This document shows positions 8,564 through 23,659 of a stretch of 64,000 bases of DNA, piece after piece; the stretch's first letter is position 1, and each line of letters begins with the position of its first letter. The translations under genes and the position numbers were made by a program. This stretch comes from Nitrospira sp. GTDB lineage: Bacteria > Nitrospirota > Nitrospiria > Nitrospirales > Nitrospiraceae. The notes beneath the pieces were generated by a model. That model saw only the letters and a list, made by a program, of their open reading frames with translations, did no database searches and was not told the origin of the DNA. The stretch is taken from assembly GCA_016788885.1 (NCBI GenBank), contig JAEURX010000055.1, positions 1 to 64,000 on the forward strand. The letters are read 5' to 3'.

Positions 8564-8899
8564 ATGAAACGCGTCGTGATCGAAGAACTCACGCCGGGCA
8601 TGATCCTGGCCAAGCCCGTCACCAACAGCACAGGCCTGGTCGTGCTGCCCATCGGCGCGGAGTTGGATGAAGCCACCCTCGGCCGGCTCCAGCGTCTGGG
8701 CCTGCCCTCCGTCTACGTGGAAGGCGAAGCCGGCGACGCCAGCGGGAAGACCCTCGCTGAGTTGGAAGCCGAACTCGACCATCGGTTTCGACGCGTGATC
8801 GACGATCCACTGCAACTCCAGCTCCGTGAAGCGATCCGGCTGCAACTCCGGGCAACTCACGGAGTTGCCGATCATTCCGAGGCACCGCCGACCACATGA
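8564..8899 (+). CDS. small HD-GYP-N-terminal-like (DUF3391-like) protein
   Basis: 111 residues. The first 60 (ELTPGMILAKPVTNSTG, LPIGAELDEATLGRLQRLG, PSVYVEG) resemble the N-terminal module found in front of many HD-GYP phosphodiesterases, but no HD-GYP domain follows. A Glu/Leu-rich helical tail ends the protein. Its stop overlaps the start of the HDOD gene (ATGA), so the two are translationally coupled. It may be a regulatory or adaptor subunit for the HDOD protein. No clear Shine-Dalgarno sequence is seen. Confidence 0.75.
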   Translation: MKRVVIEELTPGMILAKPVTNSTGLVVLPIGAELDEATLGRLQRLGLPSVYVEGEAGDASGKTLAELEAELDHRFRRVIDDPLQLQLREAIRLQLRATHGVADHSEAPPTT

Positions 8900-9729
8900 A
8901 TCCTTCAGCCAAAGTCGATCTTCGCCGGCGCATCGAACAGGTGGGCGAGCTGCCGACCCTGCCCCATGTCGTCCAGAAACTGGCGTCGATGATCGGCCGG
9001 CCGAACGTCTCGGCGGAGGAGATCGGCATCCTGATCGAGAAAGACCAAGTCCTGTCGGCCAAAGTGTTGCGGCTGGCGAATTCGCCGTTCTATGGATTCC
9101 CCTCACGCATTGCATCCGTCGCGCATGCGGTGGTGGTGCTGGGGCTGAATGTCGTCAAGGGCCTGACGCTGTGCGCCACGGCGTTCGACATGATGCGCAA
9201 TGCCGGAATGAATGAGCTGTGGCGTCATTCATTGGGCGTCGCGATCACGTCGCACATTCTCGGCACACAAGCAGGCATGAAGAATCCTGAGGAAGCCTTT
9301 GTCGGCGGACTGCTGCACGATATCGGGAAGGTTGTCCTGTACGTGAAATGGACGGACGTCGGCCAACAGATCACGGCGGCCCGAGACACCTCCCACTTCC
9401 TGATGGAAACCGAGCTGGCGTTATTCGATGTCACCCATGCCGATGTGGGAGGCTGGCTCGCCACCGCCTGGCATCTCCCGGCCAGCCTGCGAGAGCCCAT
9501 TCTCCATCATCACACACCTTCGGCAGCGCAAGACGCGAAACTCCAAACCGCCATCGTCCATGTGGCCGATGTGTTGGTGAAGGGCCTCGCCTGCGGGAAC
9601 CCCGGCGACGATCTCGTCCCCCCGCTCTCACGCCAGGCCTGGGACCTGGTCGGCTTGGACTCGCACAGCCTGGCCGGATGTCTCGCCCAGGCCACGGAAG
9701 AATTTCAAACCATCGACGACTACTTATGA
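8896..9729 (+). CDS. HDOD-domain signalling protein
   Basis: 277 residues. The HDOD signature is clear: VGELPTLPHVVQKLASM (about 15-31), EEIGILIEKDQVLSAKVLRLANS, then AVVVLGLNVVKGL, and a His-Asp pair in GLLHDIGKVV (about 137-146). HDOD proteins are non-catalytic relatives of HD phosphohydrolases that act in signalling with c-di-GMP enzymes. Here the gene is the middle of a three-gene set joined by two 4-base ATGA overlaps, followed by a GGDEF protein. The DIGKVV motif keeps an HD pair, so residual metal binding is possible. Confidence 0.9.
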   Translation: MNPSAKVDLRRRIEQVGELPTLPHVVQKLASMIGRPNVSAEEIGILIEKDQVLSAKVLRLANSPFYGFPSRIASVAHAVVVLGLNVVKGLTLCATAFDMMRNAGMNELWRHSLGVAITSHILGTQAGMKNPEEAFVGGLLHDIGKVVLYVKWTDVGQQITAARDTSHFLMETELALFDVTHADVGGWLATAWHLPASLREPILHHHTPSAAQDAKLQTAIVHVADVLVKGLACGNPGDDLVPPLSRQAWDLVGLDSHSLAGCLAQATEEFQTIDDYL

Positions 9730-10703
9730 GCGGGTCTCCTGCCAACCGACGCATCCTGTTGCTGCACAACGACCCGGTCGAAATCACGCGGGTGACGACG
9801 AGCCTCAACCGGTCTGGCTTCAGCGTCATCACGGCTGAAGCCGGTCGGCTGGCCATGCATGAACTTGTGCATGATCCGCCCTGCCTGGTGCTAGCGGCGG
9901 AAGGCACGAATGGACGATCGGCGGATACGCTGGCGCGGGAGATGCGCGCGGATCCCTTCCTCGGTCGGCTGCCGTTAATCATTCTCGTGCGGGATATCCG
10001 GATCAACGATTTGGACTGGGCCACGCTCGGCATCGATGACTATATTGCCGTTCCCTATCGGCCCGATGAAGTGCCGCAACGCGTGCGCCTGTGCCTCAGC
10101 CGTCTTGAACGGTCGCTGGATGCCAATCCCCTCACTCGCCTGCCAGGCAACAGCACCATTCTCCACGAAACGACGACACGGATTGAAAGCGGCGCCCCGT
10201 TCGCATTGGCCTATCTTGATCTCGACAACTTCAAGTCGTTCAACGACCGTTATGGGTATGCCCGTGGCGACGAAGTGCTGGTCGTCACCTGTCGGATCCT
10301 GACCACGGTCGTCAGTGAACTGGCTGGAACGGACGGATTCGTCGGTCATGTGGGCGGAGACGATTTTGTGTTTATGAGCGCACCGGCCACCATCGAAGCG
10401 ATATGTCAGACCCTGATCAAACGCTTCGACTTAGTGATCCCGGATTTCTACGATCCGGAGGATCGCGCCAAAGGATTCATCGACTCCGTCGACCGCCGCG
10501 GCAATCACGAACGCTTCCCGATCATGAGCCTGTCGATCGCCGTCGTGACCAATGAACATCGCACCATCTCCCATCCTGGCGATGTCAGCAAAATTGCCTC
10601 GGAATTGAAGAAGCTTGCCAAGAGCCAGCCCGGCAGCGTCTATGTGAAGGATAACCGGAAGACCGAAGCCGGGGACCCAGCCTCAGACAGCCACGCGGCG
10701 TGA
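9726..10703 (+). CDS. receiver-like + degenerate GGDEF-domain protein
   Basis: 325 residues, starting at the ATG overlapping the HDOD stop. Residues 8-125 form a receiver-like domain (RRILLLHNDPVEITRV at the start, KP replaced by PYRPDE), without an obvious phosphorylatable Asp context. Residues 135-310 are a GGDEF domain (NPLTRLPGN, LAYLDLDNFKSFND), but the signature is GGDDF (210-214) and the RxxD inhibitory site is absent (AGTD instead). It may still make c-di-GMP or only bind nucleotides. The coupling to an HDOD protein suggests one signalling complex. Confidence 0.87.
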   Translation: MSGSPANRRILLLHNDPVEITRVTTSLNRSGFSVITAEAGRLAMHELVHDPPCLVLAAEGTNGRSADTLAREMRADPFLGRLPLIILVRDIRINDLDWATLGIDDYIAVPYRPDEVPQRVRLCLSRLERSLDANPLTRLPGNSTILHETTTRIESGAPFALAYLDLDNFKSFNDRYGYARGDEVLVVTCRILTTVVSELAGTDGFVGHVGGDDFVFMSAPATIEAICQTLIKRFDLVIPDFYDPEDRAKGFIDSVDRRGNHERFPIMSLSIAVVTNEHRTISHPGDVSKIASELKKLAKSQPGSVYVKDNRKTEAGDPASDSHAA

Positions 10704-10751: not shown

Positions 10752-11258
10752 CTATCGCGAGGCGCTCTCCTCCGAAGGCTGACCGCCGCCGGCCCCGCCG
10801 TACTGGCGGCGAAGTTCCCGTCGATACGCACGACGTTCTTCGGGGGACATGCCCTGAAACTTTTCCCGCAACTCCTTCCGTTGTTCGGGGGGGAGTGACC
10901 GAAACCAGCGCCTGGCCTCGCGCACCGATTCTCGCTGTTCAGGCGGAAGCTGACGGAACTGCTGAAAGCGTTCGCGCATCTGCTGTCGTTGCTCCGGCGG
11001 CAGCGAACGCCATTGCTTGAAGCGCTGTTTCGCCTCCTGACGCTCTTCCGGCGTCATGGTGCCCCACTGTCGGGCACCATTCCGCAACCGTTGCTGTTTC
11101 CGCGGCGGCAACTGATCCCAGGTGTCGCTGAACCGCTGCAACAGTTGCTGCTCGCCAGAACTGAGCTGGTTCCACGGCACCCCAGCCGGATCACCCTGCG
11201 CCCACGCAGGCATGACCCCGATCACGACCAGCAGCACTCCTACCAACAACACTCTCAT
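10752..11258 (-). CDS. DUF3106 exported protein
   Basis: 168 residues. A signal peptide ends near AWAQ (residue 21). The rest is charged and helical with repeated units of the form LPPEQRQQ/MxPEERQE (LPPRKQQRL, MTPEERQEA, LPPEQRQQM, LPPEQREsV, LPPEQRKEL, MSPEERRAY), the hallmark of DUF3106. Function is unknown; in other bacteria this family is encoded next to an ECF sigma factor and a DUF3619 protein, as here. It is last in the four-gene operon and overlaps the preceding gene by 4 bases. Confidence 0.87.
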   Translation of the reverse strand: MRVLLVGVLLVVIGVMPAWAQGDPAGVPWNQLSSGEQQLLQRFSDTWDQLPPRKQQRLRNGARQWGTMTPEERQEAKQRFKQWRSLPPEQRQQMRERFQQFRQLPPEQRESVREARRWFRSLPPEQRKELREKFQGMSPEERRAYRRELRRQYGGAGGGQPSEESASR

Positions 11259-11581
11259 GGACCTGTGTGTATCCTCAGTGAATCGTGCGGGTGATCCTGG
11301 GCAGGCGTTGACGGGTTCTCCCGCGCGGGTTTTCGAACACCGGCTGTCGCCCTCTGGTGATCCGACGTTGACTCCACCGGAACCTGCGAAGCCCGATCAC
11401 CGGTGAGGGCAAAGGGATCGACCCAGCGACCATCCTCATCCTGCCAGCTCCCCAAAAAATCGAGCAACTCGGCATCCGGCTCTTCTGTCGCCGGTGTCGG
11501 TGTCGGCGCCGCTTCTGCAACTCCAACGGCCAGGCAGAACAGGAGCAGCAGTCCCGGTCTACCCGGTGGTGGCGGTGCCAT
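11255..11581 (-). CDS. small exported Pro-rich protein of the sigma operon
   Basis: 108 residues. A hydrophobic N-terminal stretch (PGLLLLFCLAVGVAEA) looks like a signal peptide. The mature part is Pro/Asp/Glu/Thr-rich (TPTPATEEPDAELLDFLGSW) and disordered, with a short LGSWQDEDGRWVDPF segment. No family is recognised. The start lies 22 bases inside the preceding gene and the end overlaps the DUF3106 start (ATGA), which supports it as a real gene in the operon. Confidence 0.65.
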   Translation of the reverse strand: MAPPPPGRPGLLLLFCLAVGVAEAAPTPTPATEEPDAELLDFLGSWQDEDGRWVDPFALTGDRASQVPVESTSDHQRATAGVRKPARENPSTPAQDHPHDSLRIHTGP

Positions 11582-11915
11582 CGGCCAGCCAATCGTAAAA
11601 TTCGAGGTCCTCGGATAATTCGAGATTTTCCGGAGATTGCATCAGCTCAAGGTCTTCCAACAACAGATGCGAGTGGTGAGTGCCATTCGCCTGCCACAGC
11701 CACATCGTCACTGCCAGCGCGGCGATCGAGGCCAAGGCCAGAGCACTTGCCCATCGGAGCCAGGGTCGATGCGCACGAGCCTGGCTCAGGGCATTCACCC
11801 GCGCACGTTGCACTGACAGCACGGTCTTCTGATCGAGCGCCTCGACACTTTGATCGAGAAGATGCTTCGCCGCGAGGGTCAGCGGATCCAGCCGTTCATC
11901 CGATCGTCGGTTCAT
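11559..11915 (-). CDS. single-pass membrane protein, probable anti-sigma factor (DUF3619-like)
   Basis: 118 residues, starting MNRRSDERLDPL at the ATG overlapping the sigma factor stop. An N-terminal soluble part of about 50 residues (LAAKHLLDQSVEALD, SVQRARVNAL) is followed by one membrane helix (about 55-75, ASALALASIAALAVTMWLW) and an acidic C-terminal part (LLEDLELMQSPENLELSEDLEF). This layout and position match DUF3619-type proteins, which occur directly after ECF sigma factors. A cytoplasmic sigma-binding part with a periplasmic sensor tail is inferred. Confidence 0.75.
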   Translation of the reverse strand: MNRRSDERLDPLTLAAKHLLDQSVEALDQKTVLSVQRARVNALSQARAHRPWLRWASALALASIAALAVTMWLWQANGTHHSHLLLEDLELMQSPENLELSEDLEFYDWLADGTATTG

Positions 11916-12541
11916 GGCCAATGTGCTCCTAATCGCTGTCGCAAGACCTGCAGGGCACGAAACAAATGGGTTTTCACACTGCCTTCCGAACACCCCATGG
12001 CCCGAGCCGTTTGCGCCACGTCTAATTCTTCCCAGATTCGCAACAGAAACGCCTGCTGCTGCCGGAGCGGAAGGGCACGGAGAGCCACCTCCAATTCAGC
12101 ACAAGCTCGCTTCTGCTTTATCTCTTCATCAGGCGCGGGAGCCGTCGAGTCGGGAACCTGTTCCAGGGGATCTTCGCTCTCTTCCTCGTCCTGAGAACCG
12201 CGGAAGAACTCCCGCAACCGATTCCGCACCCGTTCCCGCCGATACCAATCGCGAATCCGGCTTTGCAGAATACAATGAAACAGCGGCCCCCATTCCTCTT
12301 CGGGCCGCTGGCCGTACTTCTCTGCCAGTTTCAGCATGGCATCCTGGACGAGATCCAACGCCTCATCCTCATTGCCGGTGGCAATATGTGCCATACGGAA
12401 TGCGCGCCGCTCAATGCCCGCCAGGAACCGGTCCAATGCCTGGGTTCGATCCAGAGAGCCCACCCTCTCCCCCAGGCAGAGATCGCCTGGCTGTCCATTG
12501 ACGGCCATGGGAGACGACCACCCGATCATTCTCCCACCCAT
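11912..12541 (-). CDS. ECF-family RNA polymerase sigma factor
   Basis: 209 residues. Region 2 spans about 30-100 (LDRFLAGIERRAFRMA, DLVQDAMLKLAEKY, IRDWYRRERVRNR); an acidic linker follows (about 112-135, EEESEDPLEQ); region 4 is about 145-205 (ALRALPLRQQQAFLLR, QTARAMGCSEGSVKTHLFRA). First gene of an operon with a membrane protein, a small exported protein and a DUF3106 protein, joined by 4- to 23-base overlaps. Start is uncertain: ATG at 12541, 12529 or 12508 are all possible and none has a good ribosome site. Confidence 0.87.
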   Translation of the reverse strand: MGGRMIGWSSPMAVNGQPGDLCLGERVGSLDRTQALDRFLAGIERRAFRMAHIATGNEDEALDLVQDAMLKLAEKYGQRPEEEWGPLFHCILQSRIRDWYRRERVRNRLREFFRGSQDEEESEDPLEQVPDSTAPAPDEEIKQKRACAELEVALRALPLRQQQAFLLRIWEELDVAQTARAMGCSEGSVKTHLFRALQVLRQRLGAHWP

Positions 12542-12968: not shown

Positions 12969-15900
12969 TTACTTGGCGGCGCTCTGATCAGCCGCCTTCT
13001 TTCCGCCGGCCCAGGCGACCGAGGGAATTTTGGCGACGAGGTCGAGGCGCTCGTGCGCGTCATTGTCGTTGAGATCAGGACCGACGCTGTACAGGACCCC
13101 CTTCTTGAGATTGACCAACATCGGTAGGCCGGTGAAGGGATCATACAATCCTTGTCCGGCCTTGGCGAGCCTGGTCAACAGGTCTTGCTCCGACGGCGTC
13201 CGGCGTAACCACGCCTGCAATGAGGCCAGCCTCAGGCGCGCATCAGTTTCCAGCACTCGACCGGCATAGGCTTCCCACGTGGGAAGGGGATCGACGCCGA
13301 CCAGACTCTCAATGGGATTCAGCACGAGGTCGCCCACACCGTACGGCGGCGCATGCACAAACGTTGACTGCTTCGGCACATCTGCATAGCGGCCCTCCGC
13401 CGCTGCCTTTCCGGCATCTTCATAATATTGCGCATACGCGTTGAACCGACGCTGCTTGGGTAGGGGCAAGGCCGCCGCGATCGCACCGTAGAACGGGCGG
13501 GTTTCAGCCCGGTCACGGTTGATGGCCTCATCCACCGTTTTGGTGGCTAACACGAACTGACTCTGCATCGGCCAGCGAACCGACAGTTCAGCCGGCTCGA
13601 GTGGCCGAGCGAGTTTGGCCAAACGACCGATCTGCCGCTCATCGAGATCGGGCCGTTGCAGCAACCCGCCCATGACCGCAATGTCGTCATTCATCGCGGC
13701 ACTGGCCAGCAGTTTCATCGGCATGGTCTTGGCCTGCCCCAACACCGTTCGCCAGGCCGTCACATCGGTTTCGAGCCGGGCAAACCCTGTTTCGACATCC
13801 TGCGCAAACCCTTCAGCCACATAGAGTCGATGCGTCTGGAGGATCAAGCCGCAGTTTGGGCTGATCGATTGCCCATAGCCCTCGTCTTCAAACGGCTTGC
13901 TCAACCACTGCCGGTACCGCCCCAATCCGACCTCGTTCTGGGACACGAAGCTCTTCACTCCACCGGCGTTCTGAGACATCTGCAACGCCGGGTCGGATGC
14001 CTTGATCCATTTGCCGACCGCCTCGGCCGATGAGGTCTGGTCTCCGCTGGACGAAGCGCCTTCACCGGTCAGACAGACCTGCGCGAACGTCTGATCGGCA
14101 CCCTCGACGCGTCGATCCATCCCGACCTGCACAGGATCCTGCGTGGAGGGCGCACCGAAACCAAGGAGAAGGACATAGCCGTTCTTGGCGGAATCCTGCA
14201 GCATCTGTTGCGGCACGGACGTCATGTTTCGATAGGCGGCACTCGGCTGCTCCTCGAGGACCAGCCAGGTCAACGCCACCCCCGCAACGGTTCCTCCGAT
14301 CAGGAACAAGACGAATCCAACGAGGGCCAATCCCATGACCACCAGCGATCGCGTCGTGGACACTCCGGCGCCGACAAGCGCCGCGACCGCTTCTCCCGCA
14401 CGAGCCCACAGGGGTCTTCCGGCAGGTCGACTGACGACGGGACGTTGAGGTACCTCCTGCACAAGCACCGGGATCTCCGGTGCGACCGGGGCAACCGGTT
14501 CGATCTCCTGCTCCTCTACCGGAGCGACGGACGCCTCTTCCTGCAAGACCACCGGAACATCTGAAACAAGCGAATCTGCAGCAGGTGGTGCGACATCAGG
14601 AACGGCACCGGCTTCGACGGCACCCGTCTCCATGGATTTTTTGAACCAGCGGGTCAGCATGTTCCCGCCGGACGCAGCGGGAGCGGGGGCCGGCGCGGAG
14701 GACCCATCCTCCCAGAGAATCTTCAAGTTCTCATCCGCAACCGGCTCGGAGGGAATCGGTGACGCCGATACTGGCCCCTCTTCCGCTGAGACAACAACAG
14801 GCTCGTCCGACACTTCTGCAACCACGGCGGGCGCAACCGGTTCCGGAACATCCACCGACGCAACAGAGATGGGGGCCGATTCCTCCAAGGGGGCCACCGC
14901 CGCTTCTTGGATTTCTGCAACCGCGGGCGACTCTTGACTCGGCTCAGCCGGCACGCACTCGCATTGCGGCAATTCGGCGAGGGATTCGTTTGCCTGAGCC
15001 TCGCACACGCTGTGGAATTCGGATTCGAGGGTCGGTTCCTGCACAAGAACCGGAGCGACTTCTGCTGCCGCCGGAATGTCCGGCTCGACAGAAACCGCCT
15101 CGTGCACCACCGTCTCTTCTTCCTGGGGAACCGCCGGCTCGACCACGGACTCAGGCGAAGCGGGCGCAACAGCAGCCTCTGGAATGGTCTCGAGCGGGGC
15201 CGGCTCGACGACCTCCTGCACAGCCATCGCTTCCACCGGTTGTTCCACCGGCAGAACAGCTTCTGGCAACGAGGCCTCCCTCGAAACCGGTTGACTCTCT
15301 GCAAGTGTGAATTCCGTCACCGGCTGGGCGCTCTCAGAATGCGACACCTCCGCGGCCATCGGCGTGACCGTCACGCTCTCAGCCAGACGGAAGGCTGGCG
15401 CTGCAAGCTGTTCCACCGTGGATGTGAGTGGCGGGTCAGACCCTGGCAACACATCCGGCACCGGCTCAGCAATCGCCTGATGCGCCTCCACGGGCACCGG
15501 GGTCACTTCATCTTGTGATGTGACCGGGGCGTCCGGCGACAGGATCTGGAGTTCGGCCGCAGAATCGGCATTCGCATCCAGGGAAGGAGCAGCCGCACTC
15601 TTCTGTTCGTGGGTCTCCTCAGTCGCCGCCGGTTTGGACTGGTCCGATGCAATCGGTACGAGTCGCGTGGCTTCCTGCTCAAGCTCAATGACCTCGACAG
15701 TCATAGATTCGACTGCTGGTTCCGGTTCCGGACTGGGAATCGTGATCTGGTCTGCTTCGATCTGTTCCCACGGCATGGGTGCTGACAAGGAGGAGGCCGC
15801 TACGACTGAATCGCCCGAGGGAGCTGCCGACGGAACATCGACCGACAGCGGGGCTGCACCGACGCCATCACTGGAGTCCTCGACAACGGACGCAGCCGGC

Positions 15901-17729
15901 TCAACCAGGGCCTGCTCTGGAGCTCGCTCGACCGGCGCTTGTGACAGGGGCGATGCAGGCTCAGCGGGAACTTGCATGGCCGCGACCGCTGCGAGAATTT
16001 CTTCCCACGTCAGCCCGGAAGACGTGACTTCAGAACGAGTCTGTTGGGCAGCCGGTTCCACCGTCGCGGAAGGATCGGGCATGGGCGAGACCACGGCTGT
16101 TTCATTGGACAGAGCGGTTTGCACAATGGAGCTGTCAGATGTGGGTGCAGCAGCCGCAGGCACAGAACTGATCTCCTCCTGAACGTGATCCCATGGCATG
16201 GGACGCGGACTCGTTGGAGCCTGGGCAATCGGCTGGCTACTGGTCTGCAGGAGCACTTCGAGCCTGGGAGACGCCGCCTCAGTCGATACGGATGCACCTA
16301 CGTCCTCCACCGGCGCAGCCACATGGTCTTCCGCGGCCGGTGTAGTCTGCTTGGCAGGAGGCGGAATCAGAATGGCCGCCTCCTCGACCTGATCCCAAGG
16401 CATCGGTGCCGGAGGCTTGGGAATCTCGACGATCGGGTGACTCCCGCTCTGCGACAGGACCTCAATGGCCGGAACCACCGGCTCCACCGTTGCCACCGGT
16501 TCCGGAATCGACGCACTCGAATGCGCTGGAGGAAGTGCCGCCGGCTCCTCCGTCACGCTCGATTCCAGGCTTGGCGAGGTGGGAGTGATGGTAACAGGCC
16601 CTTCTTCAACTTGATCCCATGGCATGGCCGCCGGAGCAGTTGGCGTTTGAGCAATCGGGTGCGCACTGGTTTCCGTTTGGAGTTCGATCGCAGGCTGAGG
16701 TTCGGCCTCGACGGAGGGCATCGGCAACACCATCTCCGCCATCGGGGCCGGAGTCTCGTCCTTCGAAGGCGAACGGGTCTGATGCCGCTGTTCTGTCGGC
16801 TGTTCTTCGACCGCTGCGGCCGGAGGTACAGGTTCGGCGGAAACCTGAGGCTCCGGCAGAGCGTCCGGCACCACGACCTGCACGACTGCCATTGGATCGG
16901 GTGGCGCTTCCGCTGGAGCCACCACTGATGCCGCTTCAACCGGTGATGTAGGAGGGACGATTGCTTCCTCGGCTTGAGTCGATGGGTCTGCTGCCGAAGC
17001 AGAGGTGAGCTGGGCAGCTGACGGATCAACCGGTGCCGGGTCCATCTGCTCCCAAGACATGAGCCTGGGACTCTCCGCGGGTGACTCCGAGACCGCCGCA
17101 ACGGCAGGTGGTTCACTTGTGACATCGGCAACCGCAGCCTGGGGAGCGGGCTGTAACACCTGCCCCGTTACGGTGTCAAACATGGCCGCAAATCGAAATG
17201 CGACCGGACTACCGGGTGCGAGGGAACGAATCCGTGCAAAGAGTTCACTAGGCCAGTTTGGCTTTTCGGCATCAGGATCTTCCAGCAAGACCTCGACTGC
17301 CTTGCCGTACTCGGCCACCGCTGCCATGACGTCGCCTTTTTCCTCATAGACATGTCCCAGCATTTCCAAGAACGGGACGAAACGCGGGCCCGCCGTCAGG
17401 TACTCGCGCAAGAGCGACTCTGCCAGCCAATAGTCCTGACGCTCCATGGCCTCCCGAGTCAGCGATTCGAACGCGGTCCTCGCGCTCATGAGGCTGCCTA
17501 GCCGCAAATGAAGCGTGGCAAACAACCGACGTGCTTCAGCATTGAGGGGATCGAGCGCAAGGAGATCTTTGAGCGCAGACGAGGCCCGGCCATACTTGCC
17601 GGCATTCATTTGTGTAATGGCGTCCTCGAGCAGCGCCGACTTTTTGTTGTAGCCGATGCTGCCCTTCTTCTGGGTCTTTGGCGGGACTTTTTTGTCGGGT
17701 TTAAGAGGCGGTTTTTTATCGAATCGCAC
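12969..17729 (-). CDS. 1586-residue TPR / low-complexity / membrane protein with repeated Trp motif
   Basis: 1586 residues. The N-terminus is Lys-rich (FDKKPPLKPDKK), then TPR-like helical pairs (about 30-180: AITQMNAGKYGRASSALKDL, AVAEYGKAVEVL). A very long Ala/Pro/Glu/Val-rich disordered region (190-1120) contains a short Trp-centred motif repeated about seven times, most often PMPWDQVEE. One membrane helix lies at about 1140-1170 (LVVMGLALVGFVLFLIGG), then a periplasmic-looking domain (1175-1586) that ends with YDPFTGLPMLVN and LYSVGPDLNDND. Family unknown. It looks like a linker or scaffold spanning the cytoplasm and periplasm. Its composition is even, with no sign of frameshift. Confidence 0.88.
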   Translation of the reverse strand: MRFDKKPPLKPDKKVPPKTQKKGSIGYNKKSALLEDAITQMNAGKYGRASSALKDLLALDPLNAEARRLFATLHLRLGSLMSARTAFESLTREAMERQDYWLAESLLREYLTAGPRFVPFLEMLGHVYEEKGDVMAAVAEYGKAVEVLLEDPDAEKPNWPSELFARIRSLAPGSPVAFRFAAMFDTVTGQVLQPAPQAAVADVTSEPPAVAAVSESPAESPRLMSWEQMDPAPVDPSAAQLTSASAADPSTQAEEAIVPPTSPVEAASVVAPAEAPPDPMAVVQVVVPDALPEPQVSAEPVPPAAAVEEQPTEQRHQTRSPSKDETPAPMAEMVLPMPSVEAEPQPAIELQTETSAHPIAQTPTAPAAMPWDQVEEGPVTITPTSPSLESSVTEEPAALPPAHSSASIPEPVATVEPVVPAIEVLSQSGSHPIVEIPKPPAPMPWDQVEEAAILIPPPAKQTTPAAEDHVAAPVEDVGASVSTEAASPRLEVLLQTSSQPIAQAPTSPRPMPWDHVQEEISSVPAAAAPTSDSSIVQTALSNETAVVSPMPDPSATVEPAAQQTRSEVTSSGLTWEEILAAVAAMQVPAEPASPLSQAPVERAPEQALVEPAASVVEDSSDGVGAAPLSVDVPSAAPSGDSVVAASSLSAPMPWEQIEADQITIPSPEPEPAVESMTVEVIELEQEATRLVPIASDQSKPAATEETHEQKSAAAPSLDANADSAAELQILSPDAPVTSQDEVTPVPVEAHQAIAEPVPDVLPGSDPPLTSTVEQLAAPAFRLAESVTVTPMAAEVSHSESAQPVTEFTLAESQPVSREASLPEAVLPVEQPVEAMAVQEVVEPAPLETIPEAAVAPASPESVVEPAVPQEEETVVHEAVSVEPDIPAAAEVAPVLVQEPTLESEFHSVCEAQANESLAELPQCECVPAEPSQESPAVAEIQEAAVAPLEESAPISVASVDVPEPVAPAVVAEVSDEPVVVSAEEGPVSASPIPSEPVADENLKILWEDGSSAPAPAPAASGGNMLTRWFKKSMETGAVEAGAVPDVAPPAADSLVSDVPVVLQEEASVAPVEEQEIEPVAPVAPEIPVLVQEVPQRPVVSRPAGRPLWARAGEAVAALVGAGVSTTRSLVVMGLALVGFVLFLIGGTVAGVALTWLVLEEQPSAAYRNMTSVPQQMLQDSAKNGYVLLLGFGAPSTQDPVQVGMDRRVEGADQTFAQVCLTGEGASSSGDQTSSAEAVGKWIKASDPALQMSQNAGGVKSFVSQNEVGLGRYRQWLSKPFEDEGYGQSISPNCGLILQTHRLYVAEGFAQDVETGFARLETDVTAWRTVLGQAKTMPMKLLASAAMNDDIAVMGGLLQRPDLDERQIGRLAKLARPLEPAELSVRWPMQSQFVLATKTVDEAINRDRAETRPFYGAIAAALPLPKQRRFNAYAQYYEDAGKAAAEGRYADVPKQSTFVHAPPYGVGDLVLNPIESLVGVDPLPTWEAYAGRVLETDARLRLASLQAWLRRTPSEQDLLTRLAKAGQGLYDPFTGLPMLVNLKKGVLYSVGPDLNDNDAHERLDLVAKIPSVAWAGGKKAADQSAAK
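14700..17060 (-). repeat. intragenic Trp-motif repeats (about 7 copies)
   Basis: Within the disordered part of the 1586-residue protein, about seven copies of a short motif occur: MSWEQMD (near 17050), MPWDQVEE (near 16615 and 16400), MPWDHVQEE (near 16190), LTWEEI (near 16000), MPWEQIEAD (near 15770) and ILWEDG (near 14715). Four to five are preceded by Pro/Ala and followed by an acidic then Ile/Val stretch. Spacings are irregular, 60 to 350 residues. Confidence 0.8.
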
Positions 17730-18285: not shown

Positions 18286-19116
18286 GTGACCATGCGCCGC
18301 ATCCTCATTTTTACAGACCTCGACGGGAGCCTGCTCGACGCGACGACCTATTCTTACGAGGCAGCCGGCGAGGCCCTGACACTCATCGGTCGACTCGGCG
18401 CCTCACTCATACTCGTCTCCAGCAAAACCCGGTCTGAGATGGAGCCGCTTCGCCGCCGTCTAAACAATCAGCACCCTTTTATCGTGGAAAACGGCGGGGC
18501 CGTGTTCATCCCGCAGGGCACCTTTCCATTCCCGATCGAACAGGCATCCGCTCGTGAGGGATACGAAGTCGTCGAAATCGGCACTCCCTATGCGCAGCTT
18601 CGCACGGCACTGAACGGCATTCAGAAGCAGGTCGGTTGTCGGGTACGGGGATTTGGGGATCTTTCCCTTGAGGAAGTCGTTCGCCTGACAGGCTTGTCAG
18701 ACGCCGAGGCGGTGCACGCAACTCAACGGGAATATGACGAACCGTTCCTCGTTGAAGGTGAGCGCGTTGACTGGCATCGGCTCGCGGCGGCGGTGGACAG
18801 CCACGGGCTGCGCTGCACCAGGGGGGGACGGTTTTATCACGTGATGGGGGCGAACGATAAGGGAATCGCGACCAAGCAACTCATGTCGTGGTATCAGCGC
18901 TTGGCTGAACGGGAAGGACAGCAGGTGGTGACCGTCGGTCTGGGGGATAGCCTCAATGATCTCCCGATGCTGGCGGTGGTCGATCACCCTATTCTTGTCC
19001 GAAAACCTGACGGCTCCTACGACCCGGATGTGCAGCTCCCCCATCTCATTCGCGCTGATGGAGTCGGTCCGGTCGGATGGAACCGAAGTCTCACCGCCCT
19101 CTTGTCTCGCCTCTGA
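18286..19116 (+). CDS. mpgP: mannosyl/glucosyl-3-phosphoglycerate phosphatase (HAD, MPGP type)
   Basis: 276 residues. Starts at GTG 18286, which has AAGGAG 7 bases upstream; an ATG 6 bases later is the alternative. HAD motif I is FTDLDGSLLD (Asp11, Asp13), motif II is VSSKT, and motif III/IV are AATK/TVGLGDSLNDLPML. NGGAVFIP and the C2-type cap agree with the YedP/MPGP branch of HAD-IIB phosphatases, which remove phosphate from glycosyl-3-phosphoglycerate to give the solute mannosyl- or glucosylglycerate. The neighbouring GT81-like synthase supports this; which sugar is used cannot be told. Confidence 0.88.
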   Translation: MTMRRILIFTDLDGSLLDATTYSYEAAGEALTLIGRLGASLILVSSKTRSEMEPLRRRLNNQHPFIVENGGAVFIPQGTFPFPIEQASAREGYEVVEIGTPYAQLRTALNGIQKQVGCRVRGFGDLSLEEVVRLTGLSDAEAVHATQREYDEPFLVEGERVDWHRLAAAVDSHGLRCTRGGRFYHVMGANDKGIATKQLMSWYQRLAEREGQQVVTVGLGDSLNDLPMLAVVDHPILVRKPDGSYDPDVQLPHLIRADGVGPVGWNRSLTALLSRL

Positions 19117-19174
19117 GGCTCGACCGGGCAGCACTCTCGGACAACTCTGAGCCAACGATGTAGCGGTCGACGCA

Positions 19175-19441
19175 TTAGTGCCCCTTTGGTGGAGCAGTGG
19201 TACGACGGCTCTGCAGCCCGATGAGCAACCCACCGGCAAACCCCAACCCGACGGCAAAGGCGACCAGCCCCAACAACGAGCGGTTGAACCGAAACGGATT
19301 CTGGCGCCGTTGCGGGTAGCGTGGCACAGCCGCCTCCCCGCCCAACCAGCGTCGTGCCTTCGCTTCGCCATCGATTTCCGAAATATGTTTGGTCATACCC
19401 TGTCCTTTAGCATCCATCTGCCACACCCGTTCGGCCGTCAT
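19175..19441 (-). CDS. small single-pass membrane protein
   Basis: 88 residues. The start ATG overlaps the stop of the MscS-like gene (ATGA), which supports translational coupling; a second in-frame Met is at residue 16. After a basic stretch (about 38-50, RRWLGGEAAVPRYPQRR) there is one membrane helix (about 55-78, LLGLVAFAVGLGFAGGLLIG) and a basic tail. No family is recognised. As the last gene of the GT81-channel operon it may be an accessory subunit of the channel. Confidence 0.65.
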   Translation of the reverse strand: MTAERVWQMDAKGQGMTKHISEIDGEAKARRWLGGEAAVPRYPQRRQNPFRFNRSLLGLVAFAVGLGFAGGLLIGLQSRRTTAPPKGH

Positions 19442-20145
19442 AAGTGCCTCAAATCATCGGGCGCGCCGGCACGAGTACGAACCGACAACCCCCGCTCGAG
19501 GTAATCCTTGGCTAAATCTTTCGCGCCCAACCCGAATGCAATTGCCCCCGCCATGACGATCCCGCCCAACGTAATACCGAACCCGACGACCACGATATTT
19601 TGGGCGATACCGAGCTGCTCCAACGCCATGGCCACGGCCAACAACTGAATGCCCCAGCGGGAACAGGTCGCCACCAGGCGCGCCGGTGGCAGCCCTGCGT
19701 TGACCGCGGCGATCAGCACCGCCTGGGAGACGAAGTTCGACAGCAGCCATCCGGCAACCAGAATCAGACTGGCGGTCACCAAATGCGGCACATAGGCCAG
19801 GAAGGACTTGGCAAAATCGTTGATCGGCTGAAGATTGAGCGCGCCCAACGCCGCGACAGTCGCAAAGATCATGACCAGCCAATAGGCCGCTTGCCCGACC
19901 AATCGCGAGGGATCGGTCTTCACCCCTCCGCGAAGGAGGGCGCCGGTGACCCCCAATCGATCGAACAACCGATCCAACCCCACCACACGCAGCAACCGTT
20001 CCAGTGCTTGGCTGGCGGTCCACGCCACCACGAGGCCCGCGAAGAAAATGATGGACATCGCCAGGAGGCTCGGCAACACCGCGAGGACCTGCCGCGCCAT
20101 CAACTCTAGAGGGTCGAGGAGACCCTTCTCGAAAAATTCCTTCAT
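19438..20145 (-). CDS. mechanosensitive-channel-like membrane protein (MscS TM-helix type)
   Basis: 235 residues with about five membrane segments (near 18-45, 85-105, 120-150, 160-185 and 188-210). The repeated GVTGALLRGG / SVTxA and IVVVGFGITLGGIVMAGAIAFGLG segments are typical of the conserved MscS-type TM-helix family (CmpX-like). No beta domain of full-size MscS follows, so the protein is a short form. It probably gates ions or solutes under membrane tension. It is encoded 57 bases downstream of the GT81-like synthase, consistent with osmotic release of the solute made there. Confidence 0.84.
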   Translation of the reverse strand: MKEFFEKGLLDPLELMARQVLAVLPSLLAMSIIFFAGLVVAWTASQALERLLRVVGLDRLFDRLGVTGALLRGGVKTDPSRLVGQAAYWLVMIFATVAALGALNLQPINDFAKSFLAYVPHLVTASLILVAGWLLSNFVSQAVLIAAVNAGLPPARLVATCSRWGIQLLAVAMALEQLGIAQNIVVVGFGITLGGIVMAGAIAFGLGAKDLAKDYLERGLSVRTRAGAPDDLRHL

Positions 20146-20202
20146 AGTTCCCTCCTCCGGCCTCGACTACAGCCTGCCTTCAGATGGACGGAATTGCGAC
20201 CA

Positions 20203-21504
20203 TCAACTTGTGTGCGGTTCATTCCAACGCGCCACCAGGTACGACTTATCTTTTTCAAACGCCTGACAAAGCGCCTCAATACGGCCCTCCGCTTCGCTCG
20301 AGGTCAGCCCCTGGGTATCCAACACAAACGAGGCAGTCCGCCCCAGATACAACGGAGTGAATGCTTTCAGCACGTGATCTCGCGGCAACACACGATTGCG
20401 GTAGGCGACAGCCGCGTCATACACAACCCGAGCCCACAGGCTGTCTGCAATGCGAAAGTCCTGCAAGGCACAGGTTCCCAACGGCCGCAGGCTTTGCCTG
20501 GTCCCGGGCGCAAGGATTTGATCCCAGATTGCCCCCAAGTCGCTCAGCCCCTGCCGGAAGGTGCTGATCATGCGATCGACATTCACGTTGACCGGCTCCA
20601 CGCCAACTTCGTACTGGAACCCGAACAACGGAACCGCGTTGGAGCCATCGGTCTTGCCCCACACCGCATAGTGATCTTCCATGAGAGCGAACACCGCACC
20701 GAGCACTTGCACCAGCATGGCCGACAAGTCGGCCGCCGGATCCTTGGGATTATGGATCTTGGCACCCAAAAAACTTTGGCAGACCCGCGCCCCGCTGGCG
20801 ATGGCCTCGGTCGTCATCCAAATGTCGATGCCGAATTTTGCAACTTCCGACTCCCATACATGTTTGTCTAGATAGTGCTGAGCCAGTTGGCCGGAAAACC
20901 CAAAGTCGCCGCCGATCGGCTGTCTGATCCGGTGGCCGTAGAGCGTGCGGGTCAACGGATACACAATACTATTGGTGATCGTGCCGTCGTATTTGTGTCG
21001 CAGATAGTAGGGCGCGACGTAATCGAACCCCTGTTCAAACACTGGGCTCACCAGGAGTTCAATCCACTCCGGGGTAATGCTCCGCAAGTCCGAATCCACG
21101 ACGGCACAGGCCTTGGCTTTCAACCGACGCGCGATTTCAAAGATCGTCCGAAACGCGCTGCCCTTGCCGGGAATACCGTGATACGGCGTAATGATTTTAT
21201 GGAGCGAACTCTGTTGGTCCCCGATAAACAACGTCTTGAGGTCGACTACGGCCTGGGCGACCACATGCTGCGTGCCATCCGTGGACCCGCCGTCCGAATT
21301 CACCAAGACCGCGCGGGCGTCCGGAAAGTACTTGGCCAGGCCGGCACTCACCGCCTTGACCACATGACCGATCGTTTCGACGTTATTGAAACTGGGGATC
21401 CCGACCAAAATGTCCGTATGGGCAAATTGGTCAACCTGCGCTTCCGTTTCCGGTGTCAGGGGCGTGGTATGGACTACGTCAGGAAGATGGGAGCCAGGCG
21501 TCAT
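20203..21504 (-). CDS. GT81-like glycosyl-3-phosphoglycerate synthase
   Basis: 433 residues from the ATG at 21504; a GTG at 21519 is also in frame, but the GGAGG lies only 1 base from it. This is a GT-A fold enzyme: DILVGIPSFNNVETIGHVV, a DGGSTDGT turn, HGIPGKGSA and the metal-binding DSD (about residues 137-139 counted from this start, in AVVDSDLRS). QPIGGDFGFSG and WMTTEAIASG follow. These agree with GT81 glucosyl-3-phosphoglycerate synthases, which make the precursor of the solute glucosylglycerate from a sugar nucleotide and 3-phosphoglycerate. First gene of an operon with an MscS-like channel. Mannosyl specificity cannot be excluded. Confidence 0.8.
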   Translation of the reverse strand: MTPGSHLPDVVHTTPLTPETEAQVDQFAHTDILVGIPSFNNVETIGHVVKAVSAGLAKYFPDARAVLVNSDGGSTDGTQHVVAQAVVDLKTLFIGDQQSSLHKIITPYHGIPGKGSAFRTIFEIARRLKAKACAVVDSDLRSITPEWIELLVSPVFEQGFDYVAPYYLRHKYDGTITNSIVYPLTRTLYGHRIRQPIGGDFGFSGQLAQHYLDKHVWESEVAKFGIDIWMTTEAIASGARVCQSFLGAKIHNPKDPAADLSAMLVQVLGAVFALMEDHYAVWGKTDGSNAVPLFGFQYEVGVEPVNVNVDRMISTFRQGLSDLGAIWDQILAPGTRQSLRPLGTCALQDFRIADSLWARVVYDAAVAYRNRVLPRDHVLKAFTPLYLGRTASFVLDTQGLTSSEAEGRIEALCQAFEKDKSYLVARWNEPHTS

Positions 21505-21588
21505 ACGTTCATCCCGCACGCCTCCGCCCTGGCAACACTGTTATGACAAGACCAAACGGAACCGGCGAAAGGCAGGTGTCTGTACTCA

Positions 21589-21709: not shown

Positions 21710-22075
21710 TTATCCGGCATCCAAAATGACAATCTGCTCTCGCCGATCATGATTAAAGGGAGGCAACGGAAAATGCGCACTGACGAAATCGTTCAGACGG
21801 AGTTGATCGTCGGCATCCATGAGAATGGGATCGACCCCCAGGCGGGATTCATTCGCCCAACGAATCGTTGCGAGCCTCACAGAAAGCGGTTTCGGCTGCC
21901 CGGGAATATGCAGATGCAGCTGAAGGAGATCCCCCGCCTGCAACCCTTTGAGCCCGGTTCGCGACCAGCCGGGAATGGAAAGGTCCAGCATCCGGCCATT
22001 CCACACCAGCAGTCCATCTTCGGAACGCGACCCCGTACACTCGACGATAAAACGCGGGCGATTCTGTTGTTCCAT
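21710..22075 (-). CDS. PilZ-like domain protein 1 (no RxxxR)
   Basis: 121 residues from the second of two adjacent ATGs (22078 or 22075), chosen for spacing to TTGGAGG. The PilZ fold is suggested by DLSIPGW (DxSxxG), LLQLHLHIPGQPKPLSVRLATIRW and a conserved NESRLGVDPI strand. The N-terminal RxxxR needed for c-di-GMP binding is missing (NRPRFIVEC only), so it may be a degenerate sensor. First of the three tandem PilZ-type genes in map order, last in transcription. Confidence 0.72.
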   Translation of the reverse strand: MEQQNRPRFIVECTGSRSEDGLLVWNGRMLDLSIPGWSRTGLKGLQAGDLLQLHLHIPGQPKPLSVRLATIRWANESRLGVDPILMDADDQLRLNDFVSAHFPLPPFNHDRREQIVILDAG

Positions 22076-22231
22076 CATGCCTCCAAGCAAATGCCTCGGC
22101 AGAATATGAAAAACAACAGATTGCAAGATAGTCCCCGAAAGTGGGGGATTCTCAGAGGCCGGGCAAGGGAGCGACGTGAACTTGCAGAACGACCGGAGCA
22201 GCGGAAGGCGGGAACAGCATCACCCTCCGGG

Positions 22232-22576
22232 TCAGGCGACGCGGGAGGAATCTGAAGACTTCAACACCGACTCCACGAACCGGTGAATGCGCGCTTCCGC
22301 GCTGGCGTTCATCCTGACGGTTTCCAGACCGAACACGCGATCTTGCACCCACTGAACGGTGACGCCTTCAACATCGATCGCCTTAGGCTGATCGGGCAGG
22401 AACACGCGCAGCGTGAGTTTCATGCCGACCGTGACCGGCTTGTCGCCCTCAATCCGCCAACCCTTGACGGAAAGATCACAGACCTTGCCGGTTCCGACCA
22501 GCCCATCTCCGAGGTAATAGAGAAAGCAGCTGACTGGTACGCGTGAATGGGAGCGAGTTTTGTGTGATTTAGCCAT
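22232..22576 (-). CDS. PilZ domain protein 2
   Basis: 114 residues, from the Met of AKSHKTRSHSRVPVSCFLYY; an upstream in-frame ATG exists, but this one fits the family. It contains RSHSR (RxxxR), DLSVKGW (DxSxxG), LRVFLPDQPKAIDVEGVTVQW and GLETVRMNASAEAR, the full c-di-GMP-binding PilZ pattern. It probably is a cytoplasmic c-di-GMP effector. No Shine-Dalgarno sequence is visible before this ATG. Confidence 0.85.
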   Translation of the reverse strand: MAKSHKTRSHSRVPVSCFLYYLGDGLVGTGKVCDLSVKGWRIEGDKPVTVGMKLTLRVFLPDQPKAIDVEGVTVQWVQDRVFGLETVRMNASAEARIHRFVESVLKSSDSSRVA

Positions 22577-22731
22577 GGTGTTACGCAACGATGTTGGTCC
22601 CGGACGAGACGAACCCCGACCATGATCGAGTCTACTCAACTTGAGGGAAATGACCAAGGAGATTCTCGTTCCCGACACAGGGAGCCATCGTGATTCTCGG
22701 CTGGGTGTCGAGAGGAACAGCAGGGACGAGA

Positions 22732-23109
22732 CTACACCAGGGCCGTCACGAACTGCTCAAGCCGAGCCCGTTCATCGGCTTTGATCGAATGGACTTCGAT
22801 CCCGAATTCTTGGCCCCGCGACCAGCGCACGATTGCCTGATCCACAAAGACAGTGGGATGGTGATCCGGAAGAAAGATACAGAGCGTGACTACCGTCCCA
22901 GCTTCGACCGGATGCGTCCCATCAACTCGCCATCCGTTGAGAGAGAGATTCCAGGCCATACCGCTGCCTTGGAACTCATCGCAGGAATAGTAGACCGAAC
23001 ACTGGACAGGGAACCGACGGAAAGACCGCACCTGAAACCTGGTCCCAACCGTCGCCCGGGACCGAGAGGGGGCTAACGGAGCAAGATAGTTGTTACCACC
23101 AGTCATCAT
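22732..23109 (-). CDS. PilZ domain protein 3
   Basis: 125 residues from ATG 23109 (or the adjacent 23106); the upstream codons are unlikely to be coding. It has RSFRR (RxxxR), NLSLNGW (NxSxxG), TLCIFLPDHHPTVFVDQAIVRW and GIEVHSIKADERARLEQF, so it should bind c-di-GMP. It is more than half similar to PilZ protein 2 at the motif level, consistent with tandem duplication. Ribosome site weak (GTGGCCGG). Confidence 0.83.
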   Translation of the reverse strand: MMTGGNNYLAPLAPSRSRATVGTRFQVRSFRRFPVQCSVYYSCDEFQGSGMAWNLSLNGWRVDGTHPVEAGTVVTLCIFLPDHHPTVFVDQAIVRWSRGQEFGIEVHSIKADERARLEQFVTALV

Positions 23110-23659
23110 ATTCCGGCCACAGAAATTCTGGCTCTGCGAAGTTTTGGTGAGCGGAGAGTGTCGAATTCCCCCGGACACCAGTTCCAACTAGCACAATCCA
23201 CACCCTCTATCTCACACTTGATGCAGAAGTGGGCAAATTGTACGCGAATCCACAACCAGCCGCAACCAGGCATCAGAAGGGAATGAGCACACGAACAGAC
23301 TCGTCTTGCGCACTGGAGCCGAGAACTTCCAGCCCCCGCGAAGAAGCCGAACGTGCGAGCAGGGACCTCCCGCATTGCGGAATGGGCCATGAAGGCTGTA
23401 CTCGAACGGAAGCAACTATTTATTCCAGGGAGATAGGCGAAGGACGAACGCGTACACTTCCTTATAACCTGTACAAGAAGACAGCATTGACTGGCTGCAG
23501 ACAAACGCCCATCGGGCGATTCCTGAGATCCCATAAACTTTTTCGAACCTGGGCGGAAACAACCCCCCGCCATCCATGCGTTCTGCACGCCTGGAATCAA
23601 GATGAGAAGGTATACTGTTTCGTCCTGTATATCGAACATCCACTTGAGGGAGAACGGCG
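23110..23659. other. intergenic region, no gene seen
   Basis: 550 bases upstream of the divergent PilZ and RidA-like genes. An open frame across 23229-23656 has unnatural, Arg/Ser/Cys-rich composition and is rejected. A TATACT (23611-23616) fits a -10 box for the RidA-like gene, but its -35 is poor. Confidence 0.35.

Follow-up and report, generated by a model that had tools for sequence, protein, structure and literature searches.

The window (the whole stretch of 64,000 nucleotides that was analysed, from a Nitrospira sp.) contains on its minus strand an open reading frame at 12969–17729, which begins with a GTG start codon and encodes a protein of 1586 residues; all features of this gene given below are on the same strand. 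The N-terminal head (residues 27–195; 17145–17651) consists of tandem TPR helix pairs. It was matched by Pfam TPR_16 (residues 37–93, score at the cut-off) and TPR_19 (residues 43–103, above the cut-off), and it forms a helical array in an AlphaFold2 model of residues 1–700, built with 41 sequences, which shows nine helices between residues 27 and 181 with pLDDT values of about 93–98. Residues 196–1090 (14460–17144) form a disordered acidic arm, rich in Ala, Pro, Val and Glu, with a net charge of −129 and, up to residue 700, pLDDT values mostly below 50. A single transmembrane helix (approximately residues 1129–1149; 14283–14345) is indicated by strong hydropathy and lies within a long helix of the AlphaFold2 model. 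The remaining residues 1150–1586 (12972–14282) make up a mostly helical C-terminal domain (C-domain), presumed to be periplasmic. A first-pass annotation, made from the sequence, had proposed TPR-like helices, a stretch of about 930 residues rich in Ala, Pro, Glu and Val, and a membrane helix; Pfam, AlphaFold2, hydropathy and composition bore out all three.

The first 30 residues are Lys-rich and carry a charge of +9, and a positive flank precedes the membrane helix. From these charges (positive-inside rule) and from the missing N-terminal signal, we infer that the TPR head and the arm are cytoplasmic and that the C-domain lies outside. Such a topology, with the Lys-rich head in the cytoplasm, a single membrane passage and the C-domain outside, would fit a tether.

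Seven Trp motifs were found in the arm. The first after the head is MSWEQM at W226 (17037–17066), whose Trp is invariant in 16 orthologues of the genus. Then follow W371 (AMPWDQVEE, module 1; 16602–16631), W445 (PMPWDQVEE, module 2; 16380–16409), which is the least constant copy with a Trp identity of 0.575, and W513 (PMPWDHVQEE, module 3; 16176–16205). The motif at W575 (GLTWEEILAAV; VTSSGLTWEEILAAVAAMQ, 15972–16028) is of a helical kind, and its Trp is invariant in the genus; the helix at residues 575–585 (pLDDT 85 and, in its second half, 74) is the one stretch of the arm that AlphaFold2 modelled with confidence. Its counterpart in other genera reads FSW[NE]xxF, and the helix-type pattern was present in 55 of 75 orthologues. 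The remaining two motifs are at W654 (APMPWEQIE; 15753–15782), the most constrained of all, and at W1006 (KILWED, Trp followed by acids; 14697–14726). An eighth conserved Trp site, W1028, is basic in character (MLTRWFKK; 14637–14666); the patterns at W1006 and W1028 were each found in 24 of 25 genus orthologues. The core of the Trp motif can be written as P-M-P-W-[DE]-Q-[VI]-E. The first-pass annotation had spoken of one repeated motif; the repeats are real, but they are of at least three kinds.

For counting, the pattern [MLIVPA][PST]W[DE][QEHDVK] was used (M-type), which also catches the W575 motif. It occurs six times in the linker of the window's protein, compared with a mean of 0.09 after shuffling; the seven Trp motifs noticed at first reading are real. 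On the DNA level, a pattern for MPW[DE]Q with one mismatch allowed gave five matches in the window, where 0.14 were expected. Orthologues were collected as open reading frames possessing both head and C-domain; 91 were obtained, and 16 with a linker identical to that of another row were dropped, which left 75 (frames that were cut by contig ends or split, e.g., L098, L077 and L082, are outside this set). Their 75 linkers contained 219 M-type, 173 strict (MPW[DE][QEH]) and 55 helical copies, versus 5.1, 0.025 and 0.4, respectively, by shuffling. The position before the Trp of M-type motifs is Pro (0.86), Ser or Thr, as the pattern used dictates, and the position after it is Asp or Glu. At least one M-type motif was present in 68 of the 75 full-length orthologues, and a strict one in 67.

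Selection was compared in 16 orthologues of the genus (the window and 15 others). Mean pairwise identity was 0.917 over residues 1–200, 0.721 in the motif windows and 0.325 elsewhere in the arm. The pN/pS ratio was 0.077 for the head and 0.169 for the motifs, versus 0.672 for the rest of the arm, with nearly equal pS values (0.634 and 0.614 for motifs and rest of the arm); among single motifs it ranged from 0.031 (W654) to 0.317 (W226, the mildest). The ten best-conserved windows of nine residues in the arm were all in or beside Trp motifs. Codons for Pro, Asp and Gln vary among motif copies, so the peptide itself is what is conserved. Purifying selection on the Trp motifs inside a fast-evolving linker is supported by these sequence comparisons. 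The first-pass annotation had named in advance what would speak against its proposal, namely motifs that are missing from orthologues or are not selected relative to the linker; the outcome does not refute the proposal, with motifs in 68/75 orthologues and pN/pS values of 0.17 versus 0.67. An origin of the motif as a low-complexity by-product was also considered and is ruled out by the pN/pS values together with the shuffles.

Of the 29 genus genomes, that of the window included, 27 had the C-domain, which marks orthologues of the gene there; it was also detected in six of eight other genomes of the family, versus none of 24 in other families of the order. Among 295 genomes spread over the phylum, 77 had a C-domain, 75 of them from the same family and two with weak partial matches elsewhere; relatives with names (63 loci) are records of Nitrospira or of Nitrospiraceae, Nitrospirae or Nitrospirota. 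The orthologues are therefore almost entirely limited to one bacterial family, that of Nitrospira and its kin. As the first-pass annotation had suggested looking for, the number of motifs varies among them: five or six were found in 24 of the 25 genus rows and two in the remaining one, whereas other genera have mostly one to four, and seven of the 75 orthologues (L102, L167, L108, L115, L117, L166 and L061) have no M-type motif at all. Since such motif-less orthologues exist, and would function, if they do, without motifs, the motifs are not essential to the family.

Irregular spacing of the motifs had also been noted at first reading. This holds for some gaps, which measure 50, 74 or 98–102 residues, but a module of about 70 residues underlies the arrangement: the spacing of central copies in the genus was 68–71 residues in 17 of 33 gaps and 139–141 residues in six of 33. 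Decayed motif copies are readable at the vacant module places in two orthologues (L085 and L073). The sequences thus indicate that motif valency shifts by gain and decay of modules of about 70 residues, while the core is kept. Tandem Repeats Finder reported only one run of 27 bases in the window's gene, which points to an old age of the modules there. In another orthologue (L113), residues 290–500 contain three nearly identical Trp modules of 71 residues in a row, a recent expansion.

Within the window's genome, three matches to the MPW[DE]Q DNA pattern were obtained, all of them in this gene. Across the 29 genus genomes 115 matches were obtained, of which 107 are in the known gene; three further ones are on a separate contig of one genome (G016), in an open frame that contains these modules and belongs to a cut copy of the gene, which brings the number to 110 of 115. 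The other five are in frames of 11–70 codons and are spurious; the reversed pattern, as a control, gave two matches. The two genus genomes lacking the C-domain (G002 and G024) had no motif match either. Judged by these genome searches, the Trp motif is private to this protein within the genus. For a general hub domain one would expect clients that share the tag, and none were seen; since the motif is absent from all other plausible genes in the genus, the receptor must be either dedicated to this protein or the protein itself. Exact-string searches of the accessible literature for MPWDQVEE, MPWEQ and MPWDQ gave no match, and nothing on this protein was seen when published TPR scaffolds of Nitrospira were looked for. 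A paralogue search in the own genome yielded an unlinked TPR protein of about 634 residues (L067:7655–9556; G000:C8), which is 43% identical to the protein over residues 32–307 and is without such Trp motifs.

We propose that the protein is a hub anchored in the envelope and that several copies of a dedicated receptor dock on its arm, on a plan similar to that of the polar hub proteins FimV/HubP; in our judgement this proposal has about an even chance of being correct. The helical C-domain would fix the protein in the periplasm, or inform it from there, and the single helix would cross the inner membrane. The acidic, disordered arm would extend into the cytoplasm, present several copies of PMPW[DE]Q[VI]E together with two or three other Trp motifs, and end in a peptide-binding TPR head. 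The motifs would serve as docking sites, which selection, as read from the sequences, holds in place; gain and loss of the 70-residue modules, visible as changes of copy number, would set the valency. A dedicated receptor would then bind to these sites with avidity at the membrane, and further clients could be recruited by the TPR head. Binding of peptidoglycan or of another periplasmic target by the C-domain is a guess, because neither a known family nor a convincing structural counterpart was found for the domain. Selection on the motifs and variation in their number are what one would expect if short binding motifs are repeated in a chain. The idea of a tether to the envelope, as put forward at first reading, is partly supported, by the fitting topology and by motifs that are selected and variable in number; the motif-less orthologues (7/75) weigh against the proposed hub.

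The receptor could also be the head of the protein itself: the Trp motifs would bind their own TPR domain, either in cis, where they would form a latch, or in trans, giving a membrane-bound network. Precedents are the binding of Trp-acidic peptides by the TPR domains of kinesin light chain and the self-assembly of MamA. The privacy of the motif would be expected if ligand and receptor share one chain, and the head resembles peptide-binding TPR domains, namely KLC2 with Trp-acidic peptides (3zfw, 6f9i; Z 12.2), besides MamA (4xi0; Z 12.4) and LGN (6hc2; Z 14.8), although Z values of 12–15 are ordinary among TPR folds. The AlphaFold model hints weakly in the same direction. The helix at W575 stands out from the other ten-residue blocks of the arm, which have pLDDT values of 36–61, and its counterpart is found again in other genera. 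In two VIA alignments to MamA, residues 654–658 of the model fall in with the TPR fold. However, the DSSP bridges of the model (residues 184, 191, 568 and 574) may be local hairpins, the residue before the Trp of M-type motifs is not an acid, and with a net charge of −4 for the head an electrostatic contribution is not obvious. Two motif-less orthologues with a short linker (L102 and L167) keep most of the invariant polar residues of the head, which suggests that its surface is conserved for something else. When head positions fixed in the 68 motif-bearing orthologues were inspected for changes in the seven motif-less ones, W101 was changed in four of the seven, but most of the head is preserved in the nearest motif-less relatives; this sequence comparison leans, if anything, against self-docking, which we consider unlikely overall. 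An extension of it appears unlikely as well: a homotypic hub, in which TPR receptor and five to six Trp ligand motifs on one chain would cross-link the molecules into a multivalent, possibly condensate-like layer at the inner membrane, with a stickiness that evolves by gain and loss of 70-residue modules.

The C-domain itself was modelled with AlphaFold2 as residues 1085–1586 (61 sequences; mean pLDDT 83.9, most blocks 80–97). The model shows a long helix holding the membrane segment, the mostly helical domain, and a short strand region at the end. Scans of 61 family members against Pfam and NCBIfam gave only a sub-threshold scatter, a profile search of the PDB gave two matches with E values of about 0.46, and the best structural matches were E 0.28 (Foldseek) and Z 7.3 (VIA, to a designed protein); such weak matches do not amount to evidence for a new fold. 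The last 40 or so residues (DPFTGLPM ... YSVGxDG), which no scan matched, may resemble the ends of pseudopilins. Besides the main long form with a TPR head, a short anchored form consisting of the C-domain alone exists. In other genera this stand-alone protein adjoins a periplasmic binding protein (L062, L063, L064, L066, L122 and L125), and several of these loci also have an ABC permease and ATPase and a protein similar to TonB-dependent receptors; binding protein and ATPase were scanned at L062, and the other neighbours were read from the sequence. We read these loci as putative vitamin B12-type uptake loci.

A signalling receptor might be built in a comparable way, with a periplasmic domain that senses a ligand and motifs that recruit a cytoplasmic effector upon binding. 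The conservation of the C-domain would agree with this (mean pairwise identity in the 16 genus orthologues 0.771, membrane helix included; pN/pS 0.229), as would two Cys residues, which show little or no variation among the 11 homologues of A1 that were aligned, and the position of the stand-alone anchored form next to a periplasmic binding protein and an ABC ATPase. Yet the protein contains neither an effector domain nor a recognised ligand-binding fold, and an arm of 900 residues would be unnecessary for such a function, which renders this explanation quite improbable.

The neighbouring genes vary between genera, and none names a partner. Next after the gene in the genus come an ECF sigma factor, a small protein with one helix, and a DUF3106 protein; in the window these are at 10752–12541, and the sigma factor overlaps the small protein, which by its position is a possible anti-sigma factor. 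AIM24 (TIGR00266) and an M48 peptidase are steadier neighbours across the family. Farther away in the window are an HDOD protein followed by a GGDEF protein (8896–10703), kept together in the genus and a possible c-di-GMP pair, and a row of three PilZ-like proteins encoded on the minus strand (21710–23187), two over the Pfam cut-off and one just under it. The stretch 18286–21519 suggests compatible-solute metabolism; it contains a protein of the mannosyl-3-phosphoglycerate phosphatase family, adjoining a protein similar to mechanosensitive channels, and a glucosyl-3-phosphoglycerate synthase-like protein below the cut-off.

In 37 of the 50 full-length loci from outside the genus, the divergent upstream gene encodes a GspD-like secretin with Pfam matches to Secretin and GspD N0; over all relatives, this arrangement was noted at L088 (5087–6685) and 37 other loci. 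All 37 proteins next to a secretin possess motifs, and the seven motif-less ones are among the 13 without a secretin, four of which have little upstream DNA. This would be consistent with a structural component of a type II secretion system (T2SS), whose C-domain meets the secretin and whose cytoplasmic part holds assembly factors. The protein has no T2SS Pfam match, however; the window's genome has only secretins of 31% identity, a close one (63%) was present only in G001 among five genus genomes tested, and in G030 the secretin is on another contig, beside a T2SSF match. Fewer T2SSF matches were obtained in G000, G018 and G024, yet G000 and G018 keep the protein with its motifs. As the genus is mostly without a divergent secretin and yet keeps the protein, a link to type II secretion is not supported, and a structural role there is highly improbable.

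The envelope-anchored hub with a dedicated receptor is the reading that we prefer. Bacteria of the genus Nitrospira are major nitrite oxidisers, include complete ammonia oxidisers, and are genetically hard to study. A hub that occurs across most of the family and has a selected motif array would provide a handle on envelope organisation in these organisms and, if confirmed, would be a rare bacterial case in which the valency of motifs is visibly evolving in a disordered scaffold.

Several known systems offer themselves for comparison. In kinesin light chain (KLC), the Trp of the W-acidic motif sits between TPR2 and TPR3, and W-acidic motifs displace an internal acidic latch (PMC6214655). The present protein resembles this pair in its disordered chain, where acids come after the Trp of short motifs, and in the comparable shape of its TPR domain. 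It differs in that KLC is eukaryotic and works with separate chains; binding of the motifs by the TPR head of the present protein is hypothetical, suggested by a fold match; moreover, its M-type motifs do not have acids on both sides of the Trp (as in EWD for KLC), the preceding residue being Pro, Ser or Thr. With MamA the protein shares a similar TPR fold; MamA is not known to have a Trp-motif arm, membrane helix or periplasmic domain. It is a bacterial TPR scaffold at the magnetosome membrane, which forms homo-oligomers (PMC4482739).

By its plan the protein is closest to FimV/HubP, for which PMC12918733 describes a folded periplasmic domain, one membrane region, an extended acidic stretch in the cytoplasm and a TPR domain. 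The same elements recur here (periplasmic domain, one membrane helix, acidic arm with a charge of −129, and TPR domain, the last two presumably on the cytoplasmic side), but in reversed order, with the TPR domain N-terminal and the periplasmic part C-terminal; the conserved Trp motif modules are a further difference. LysM had no match in the whole protein with Pfam and NCBIfam (E values up to 0.1), nor had FimV_core and FimV_Cterm. In 10 genomes of the family, FimV_core had no match in any and FimV_Cterm none over the cut-off, although the control set likewise gave none over the cut-off for either model, so that the power of this search is unproven. In view of the reversed order and of the missing LysM and FimV domains, which define the FimV/HubP family, the protein is not a member of it. 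By analogy it may well work like FimV/HubP, and we refer to it as a proposed envelope hub with evolving Trp-motif valency.
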